DNA of 44,994 bases. Origin: Desulfocapsa sp. (GTDB lineage: Bacteria > Desulfobacterota > Desulfobulbia > Desulfobulbales > Desulfocapsaceae). The notes beneath the pieces are model-generated. The model searched no databases. It was not told where the DNA came from and saw nothing but the letters and a program-made list of their open reading frames with translations. Below are positions 34,084 to 38,739 of this stretch, piece by piece. How positions within the stretch are numbered: the first letter of the stretch is position 1; every line of letters starts with the position of its first letter. Location: contig JAOZKN010000004.1 of the NCBI GenBank assembly GCA_029935315.1, positions 29,135 through 74,128 on the forward strand. The letters run 5' to 3'. A program made the position numbers and the translations under genes.

Positions 34084-34488
34084 TTATTTATGATGATTTT
34101 TATATTCCTGACTTTCGCGTAAACTGTCACGAACCTGTTTTTCTGACCAATGGTCCTTGGAAATTTTTTCTCTGTACAATTGTAACCCACCACGGTCAGG
34201 CTGGCGTCCCAGAAGATCTTCATAGGCACGTTTAATAATGTCATCGCTACCCTGCTTATTAGATTCAGGACTCTTACGAAGAGCTTCTCTCACTTGCTTT
34301 TCAGTCCAGCCATCATCAATCATCTTGCTGCGAAACATTCGCATGCCAGCCTTGTCGGCTTTTCTGCCAAGAATATCTTCGTACGCTCTTTCAACCACGG
34401 CTGTGGGATCTTGCGCAGAAACGGGGCCCGTTGTAACGGCCAGGAAACACAGACAAGCCAGCAAAGTACTGATATACGTTTTTTTCAT
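34084..34488 (-). CDS. Exported protein with two DUF4214-like repeats
   Basis: A 134-residue protein with a clear signal peptide (about 1-25, cleavage after VSA before QD). The mature part is two tandem repeats of about 42 residues, each starting RAYEDxLGR and ending in a KQVRxxLRxSxE segment (about 34-76 and 87-129). This pattern resembles DUF4214, which often appears in surface and S-layer-associated proteins. AAGGAG lies eight bases before the ATG. It is a single-gene unit convergent with the mscS-like gene. Function unknown. Confidence 0.8.
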   Translation of the reverse strand: MKKTYISTLLACLCFLAVTTGPVSAQDPTAVVERAYEDILGRKADKAGMRMFRSKMIDDGWTEKQVREALRKSPESNKQGSDDIIKRAYEDLLGRQPDRGGLQLYREKISKDHWSEKQVRDSLRESQEYKNHHK

Positions 34489-38337: not shown

Positions 38338-38739
38338 ATGAAGCACTTTGCTATCTGGCTGGTCTGTATTTTTACCCTTGCAGTTACTGCATACTCTGTC
38401 TTCGCCACCCCATCCAAACGCTATGACGCCGGGACGCAAACATGCAGAGTACTCAGCGAAGGCCCACTGGAGTGGGAGACCCGATCATGGGGGAAAGGTG
38501 GCAAGACCTTCAAACAATTCTGTAAGAACTGTCATTCCCGTGACAATAAAAATGGCGGAAGCTATGTCTGGGAGGAGTCAAAAACGTCAAATGGATGGAA
38601 TAATTTCTTTACCAGAAAAAGTGCCAAATGTGCAAAATCCGGTGAATGGGATAAACTCAGCCAGGATCAGTTGCTCCTGGTAAACGATTACCTGTATCGC
38701 TGGTCCTCCACTTCCATTGACCGCTTCGACAGTCGCTGA
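38338..38739 (+). CDS. Small exported mono-heme c-type cytochrome
   Basis: A 133-residue protein with a signal peptide (about 1-23, cleavage near VFA before TPS). One heme c site, CKNCH (C62 to H66), marks a periplasmic electron carrier or heme sensor. The mature chain has no methionine and no histidine besides H66, so a standard His/Met or bis-His ligation is not possible from this chain. Other cysteines are C36 and one near 97 (KCAK). AAGGAG lies seven bases before the ATG. It follows the hybrid kinase by 159 bases and precedes the Kef-type antiporter. No electron-transfer partner gene is next to it. Confidence 0.85.
   Translation: MKHFAIWLVCIFTLAVTAYSVFATPSKRYDAGTQTCRVLSEGPLEWETRSWGKGGKTFKQFCKNCHSRDNKNGGSYVWEESKTSNGWNNFFTRKSAKCAKSGEWDKLSQDQLLLVNDYLYRWSSTSIDRFDSR

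Follow-up and report, generated by a model that had tools for sequence, protein, structure and literature searches.

A predicted His/Cys-ligated monoheme cytochrome c of Desulfocapsa and its relatives in the Desulfobulbales

The 44,994-nucleotide stretch of Desulfocapsa sp. DNA analyzed here (the window) encodes a small cytochrome c, apparently secreted, in which heme ligation by His66 and Cys98 is very probable. In the reading that we prefer, to which a probability of about 0.62 was assigned, this protein is a class I monoheme cytochrome c that serves as a low-potential electron carrier or redox partner in the periplasm of sulfur-cycling Desulfobulbales. Heme c would be attached at Cys62 and Cys65. 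Its proximal ligand would be His66 and its distal ligand a thiolate, that of Cys98, which lies in the loop that bears the distal ligand in ordinary cytochromes c. Such a heme would be six-coordinate and low-spin, with a potential of about -300 mV if TfcP of Myxococcus xanthus is a guide. Given His/Cys ligation, a role in electron transport is likely. The gene itself, the invariance of Cys98, the exchange of loop ligands among relatives and the lack of a conserved kinase partner rest on observation; the bond between Cys98 and iron, the value of the potential, the location in the periplasm and the role as electron carrier are matters that we infer. Features of the gene are listed in Table 1.

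Table 1. Features of the cytochrome gene and its product, in positions of the window.
Feature	Position	Strand	Basis or remark
Monoheme cytochrome c gene, 133 aa	38338..38739	+	ORF and 102 distinct near relatives; His66/Cys98 heme ligation predicted
Signal peptide, residues 1-23	38338..38406	+	Cleavage after VFA (Ala23) placed by eye; hydropathy maximum 2.16 at residue 4
Mature chain, 110 residues	38407..38736	+	Predicted class I cytochrome c fold with N-terminal beta-hairpin (AlphaFold2)
Cys36 codon	38443..38445	+	Cys in 96/102 near relatives; possible disulfide partner
Heme c attachment motif C62-K-N-C65-H66	38521..38535	+	His66 as proximal ligand; invariant, 102/102
Distal loop, Phe91 to Trp104	38608..38649	+	Length 14 residues in 102/102 near relatives
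Cys98 codon, putative distal heme ligand	38629..38631	+	Invariant, 102/102; C, H or M in loop of 74/74 tree rows

Translation of the open reading frame bore out an earlier sequence-only reading, which had described a mature chain in which CKNCH occurs once, with histidine found nowhere else and methionine not at all; the four cysteines are C36, C62, C65 and C98. The single CxxCH lies toward the N-terminal end of the domain, as in class I cytochromes c. The window protein matched no Pfam or NCBIfam model above the curated cut-off. Its score against Pfam PF13442 (Cytochrome_CBB3) was 16.2 bits, below the cut-off of 27 bits that was passed by three distant relatives (33.9, 38.2 and 34.8 bits). 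The possibility, raised in the same reading, that a frameshift or sequencing error conceals a Met or His ligand was ruled out because homology spans the full length of the protein; full-length relatives form an unbroken series from 80% identity downwards, the closest (in genome G009) matching over residues 1-133. A whole-genome search indicated one copy of the cytochrome in the window's own genome. The gene begins 159 bp after the end of an upstream kinase gene, and a scan of the interval revealed no forward-strand terminator and no remarkable fold. The only forward promoter-like site lay inside the 3' end of the kinase gene and has little meaning, three promoter-like sites having been found in the scan against 1.6 expected. 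Near the cytochrome region, the reverse strand at 34084-34488 encodes a small protein that looks secreted and matches DUF4214 (46.9 bits, cut-off 23.2).

The fetched loci yielded 135 distinct hits, of which 102 were assigned to a near family (E below 1e-20) and 33 were more distant. A profile search over the 257 genomes of the order detected the family in 116 of them, with one to five matches per positive genome when all matches below the search threshold were counted. Desulfocapsa was among the named hits in the search of relatives. For six of the 116 the best E-value was above 1e-10; these six probably belong to the wider superfamily, and 110 remain without them. Of 395 genomes drawn from the phylum, 6 gave matches as strong as those of the near family (E below 1e-40), all of them from the window's order. 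Tandem copies of the cytochrome gene occurred in some genomes (loci L181, L182 and L186).

The probable distal ligand was suggested by conservation within the near family, where a distal-loop cysteine is conserved and no methionine or histidine is, as in the His/Cys class. Cys98 was present in all 102 near relatives, whereas the best histidine and methionine columns outside the heme motif each reached only 23%. The residues invariant outside the motif were R28, D30, R37, G54, W87, F91, C98, G102, W104, D117 and L119, of which Cys98 alone is a usual, or plausible, iron ligand. The sequence-only reading had offered Lys, Tyr, Cys or a residue of a partner in place of the missing His or Met; the absence of the latter residues was upheld and Cys was the option retained, while Lys and Tyr were not supported, their best columns being 76% and 87% respectively. 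Methionine was missing from the mature chain of 28 of the 102 near members and both methionine and non-heme histidine from 13, and therefore the absence of His and Met is common to part of the family.

The same reading had allowed for a five-coordinate heme. In such a protein Cys98 would be tied up in a disulfide with Cys36, leaving a distal site that is either vacant or occupied by Lys, Tyr or a residue of a partner. This arrangement is consistent with the occurrence of C36 in 96 of the 102 near relatives and, more particularly, with 22 members, including the window protein, in which C36 and C98 are present but a C-terminal cysteine is not. Accordingly, a C36-C98 disulfide is possible in the window protein itself. 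However, a C-terminal cysteine was found in 80 near relatives, together with C36 in 74 and alone in 6, so that an alternative partner for C36 is available in the majority of members; 72 members have three extra cysteines, and in these a bond between C36 and the C-terminal cysteine is conceivable. Moreover, six near relatives that lost C36 retained C98, and distant clades that lack the C36 region also retained the loop residue, which argues that C98 is not kept merely as the partner of C36. Nor would a disulfide explain the presence of His or Met in the loop of other relatives. Given these findings and the invariance of Cys98, a five-coordinate heme is very unlikely and the heme is probably not open.

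Among the 33 distant hits, groups could be distinguished by a Cys, His or Met residue in the loop. Histidine was found four residues past a W...F anchor in 12 rows, while cysteine was found at seven residues after the anchor in 12 rows and at nine in 5. The remaining four rows were domains of two diheme proteins, L195 and L194, the latter encoded at C48:13412-13678 in the same genome as the window, both of which carry a loop methionine in a canonical MPxF in the second domain and a conserved histidine (HDF) in the first. His and Met ligand types thus coexist within a single diheme protein. Profile-profile alignments of the near family gave 98.8% with the His group, 97.5% with the Cys group, 98.05% with the degenerate group and 95.4% and 92.5% with the second and first diheme domains, respectively. 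These results support common ancestry of the near family with the Cys, His, degenerate and diheme groups. In the aligned columns, Cys98 matched the cysteine of the distant clades, with the histidine about two columns earlier and the methionine about four columns later, so that an exact positional match with Cys98 was seen for cysteine only. An ordinary Met-ligated monoheme cytochrome profile gave 28.6% and aligned with the near family at the heme motif only; the comparison with Met therefore rests on the diheme relatives.

The distribution of these loop residues was also examined on a tree, built from few columns, in which 35 of the 102 near members were combined with 39 distant rows to make 74. 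The distal-loop block contained Cys in 52 rows, His in 17 and Met in 5, with no row lacking all three and with a second such residue in 7 of the 74. Since ligand states were assigned from the loop itself, the question asked was whether they agree with the remainder of the sequence; the three states required two changes when the loop columns were left out of the tree and three changes when these columns were retained. The pattern of Cys, His and Met is that of a swapped distal ligand, and it is from this pattern that six-coordinate His66/Cys98 ligation of a class I cytochrome c would follow.

An AlphaFold2 model based on a 124-row alignment (pLDDT 90.8, pTM 0.85), which superseded an earlier 43-row model (pLDDT 78), consisted of an N-terminal beta-hairpin and helices resembling those of class I cytochromes c. 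Foldseek returned no match to this model at E up to 0.001, the best E-value being 0.28. The best structural neighbors identified by VIA were class I cytochromes c, with a diheme cytochrome c ranked first and c550/c549 and PsbV2 chains next, at Z of 5 to 5.8, although Z below 8 may reflect a common arrangement only. The likeness to PsbV2 and cytochrome c550 (4lji, 1f1c, 1mz4) extended over the full length of the model, including the N-terminal hairpin, but was weak (Z 5-6), and the PS_II_C550 model TIGR03045 scored 13.8 bits against a cut-off of 177.75. PsbV2 has His/Cys ligation. Cys-ligated c hemes are rare. NaxLS of anammox bacteria is likewise Cys-ligated. It resembles the window protein in that small c-type cytochromes are proposed as specific electron shuttles, and differs from it in being a complex of two cytochromes. 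NaxLS is named in the available portions of PMC8388095 and PMC12954380, and the structure of PsbV2 is referenced beside Cys-ligated cytochromes in that of PMC4423706.

Among the closest counterparts of known ligation was TfcP. According to the available portion of PMC8833165, its distal ligand is a cysteine, its potential is -304 to -320 mV and its g values are 2.51, 2.26 and 1.88, with an EPR spectrum typical of a thiolate ligand; the His/Cys features are lost from a Cys91-to-Met variant. TfcP serves here as the reference for the marks expected of a His/Cys cytochrome, namely thiolate-iron charge-transfer bands, lack of a red shift of the Soret band on reduction, g values of about 2.5/2.26/1.88 and a very negative potential. 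TfcP is, and the window protein is predicted to be, a small periplasmic monoheme class I cytochrome with a CxxCH motif, a distal cysteine in place of methionine and no conserved Met or His nearby. In contrast with TfcP, for which His/Cys ligation was measured, that of the window protein is predicted. Nor was the charged C-terminal helical extension of TfcP seen in the window model, in which the last helix ends at residue 98 of the 110-residue mature chain with no helix thereafter, and the minor pilin/PilY1 cluster that contains the TfcP gene has no equivalent among the five annotated neighbors of the window gene. The low potential proposed for the window protein follows by analogy from the effect of the distal cysteine in TfcP, and a low-potential carrier is favored because such a potential would suit an anaerobic, sulfur-cycling periplasm.

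The gene directly upstream does encode a PAS hybrid kinase, as had been noted from the sequence (PAS, HATPase and receiver domains above Pfam cut-offs, HisKA weak), and a sensor or small-molecule-binding cytochrome had been preferred to a simple electron carrier. In a redox or small-molecule sensor, Cys98 would ligate the iron in one state and leave it in another, NO, CO or sulfide would bind and a signal would pass to a partner protein. The Cys ligand of TsdA is in fact dissociated by a substrate mimic, as stated in the available portion of PMC9562282, and expression of many near-family genes looks controlled, since divergent regulators of TetR type (9) or DJ-1/PfpI-AraC type (11) were found in the 79 near-family loci sampled (78 distinct places, as L192 lies inside L186; examples are L078, L038, L039, L060, L063, L151, L066 and L067). 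Such regulators, although suggestive of dedicated expression control, act on the gene and say nothing of sensing by its product. No conserved signaling partner was found in these loci. A kinase core lay within 500 bp of the cytochrome at only 3 of the 79, the window being one, and different genes flank the cytochrome in its closest relative (L057, with 80% identity), so that a conserved kinase-cytochrome pair was rejected. The best 19-residue hydropathy of the window kinase was 1.34 compared with 2.16 for the signal sequence of the cytochrome. The kinase, having no membrane-spanning stretch, is probably cytoplasmic and the cytochrome is probably exported, which makes a direct sensor pair unlikely. 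Nothing was found to favor a sensor over an electron carrier, and a sensor is an unlikely alternative to the low-potential carrier.

A shared operon with the downstream potassium/proton antiporter gene was also rejected, a homologue being present at 1 of the 79 loci, namely the window itself. Near-family genes thus look mostly solitary and often under separate regulation; a DUF3373 porin and NrfD were each found at 1 of the 79 loci and octaheme and molybdopterin genes at none. Genes of the distant groups, by comparison, are within electron-transfer modules, adjoining those for DUF3373 outer-membrane proteins (porins), TIGR04315 octahemes, a PhsA-like molybdopterin subunit and NrfD. TIGR04315 octaheme cytochromes are of the tetrathionate-reductase family, and the PhsA-like subunit scored below its NCBIfam cut-off. 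Electron-transfer neighbors recurred in varying combinations at L082, L084, L124, L126, L134 and L140, and a literature search turned up one paper in which DUF3373 and cytochrome occur together. Because near-family genes are mostly solitary, the electron-carrier role depends on these distant relatives and on analogy, and it is the weakest part of the explanation, as TfcP itself is thought, in the available portion of PMC8833165, not to be an electron carrier. A TlpA-like thiol oxidoreductase gene (CPPC) was co-directional with the cytochrome gene in six rows, representing five distinct places, and lay directly downstream at L186 (G499:C121) and L187 (G500:C103); its product perhaps keeps the extra cysteines reduced.

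The sulfur-metabolizing hosts, among them those with Desulfocapsa names, and a Cys ligand on a c-type heme, predicted for the window protein, are also features of the TsdA/SoxA family, in which the action of TsdA involves an S-thiosulfonate formed on the Cys that ligates the heme (available portion of PMC4423706). The window protein could similarly be an enzyme or carrier of sulfur chemistry, with a thiosulfonate or persulfide on Cys98 and with Arg28 and Arg37 binding the anion. All three residues are invariant, and one distant clade adjoins TIGR04315 octahemes. However, TsdA is an enzyme with two hemes whereas the window protein has one CxxCH, and thus no second heme to take electrons away; the octaheme gene was missing from the near-family loci, and no SoxA or TsdA chain appeared among the listed PDB sequence hits. 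A sulfur-handling function is for these reasons distinctly unlikely. A broader speculation, which we consider improbable, is that small cytochromes of the Desulfobacterota make up an as yet unnamed superfamily with exchange of the distal ligand among Met, His and Cys, the Cys branch in the Desulfobulbales being a single-heme sulfur handler that would store or report periplasmic reactive sulfur as Cys98 reversibly carried sulfane, thiosulfonate or persulfide on and off the iron, with Arg28 and Arg37 as anchors, and a side branch having lost the heme attachment site.

Cytochromes c with His/Cys ligation are already known, and literature searches revealed no paper on the present family and no described family that matches it. 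Conserved cytochromes of cable bacteria are named in the available portion of PMC11976967, none of which could be matched to the present family, and the family is not described in those of PMC5516251 and PMC3739170. Since 116 of the 257 genomes of the order have the Cys family (110 with strong matches), these proteins and their relatives with His or Met offer a natural experiment on ligand swap, potential and function. When hemes of sulfur-cycling bacteria are counted automatically, proteins of this kind can be taken for ordinary cytochromes or open-heme sensors.

The heme motif itself was replaced in a clade of five relatives (L047, L048, L049, L138 and L140; for example, L049:1465-1800:-), which was found in 5 of 395 genomes of the phylum with support of 100/94. 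In place of CxxCH, three of these sequences have YxxCH and two have YxxCQ or YxxCK, while the distal-loop Cys and the C-terminal Cys are kept. To judge from these replacements, the clade represents a path from single-thioether heme to probable heme loss.
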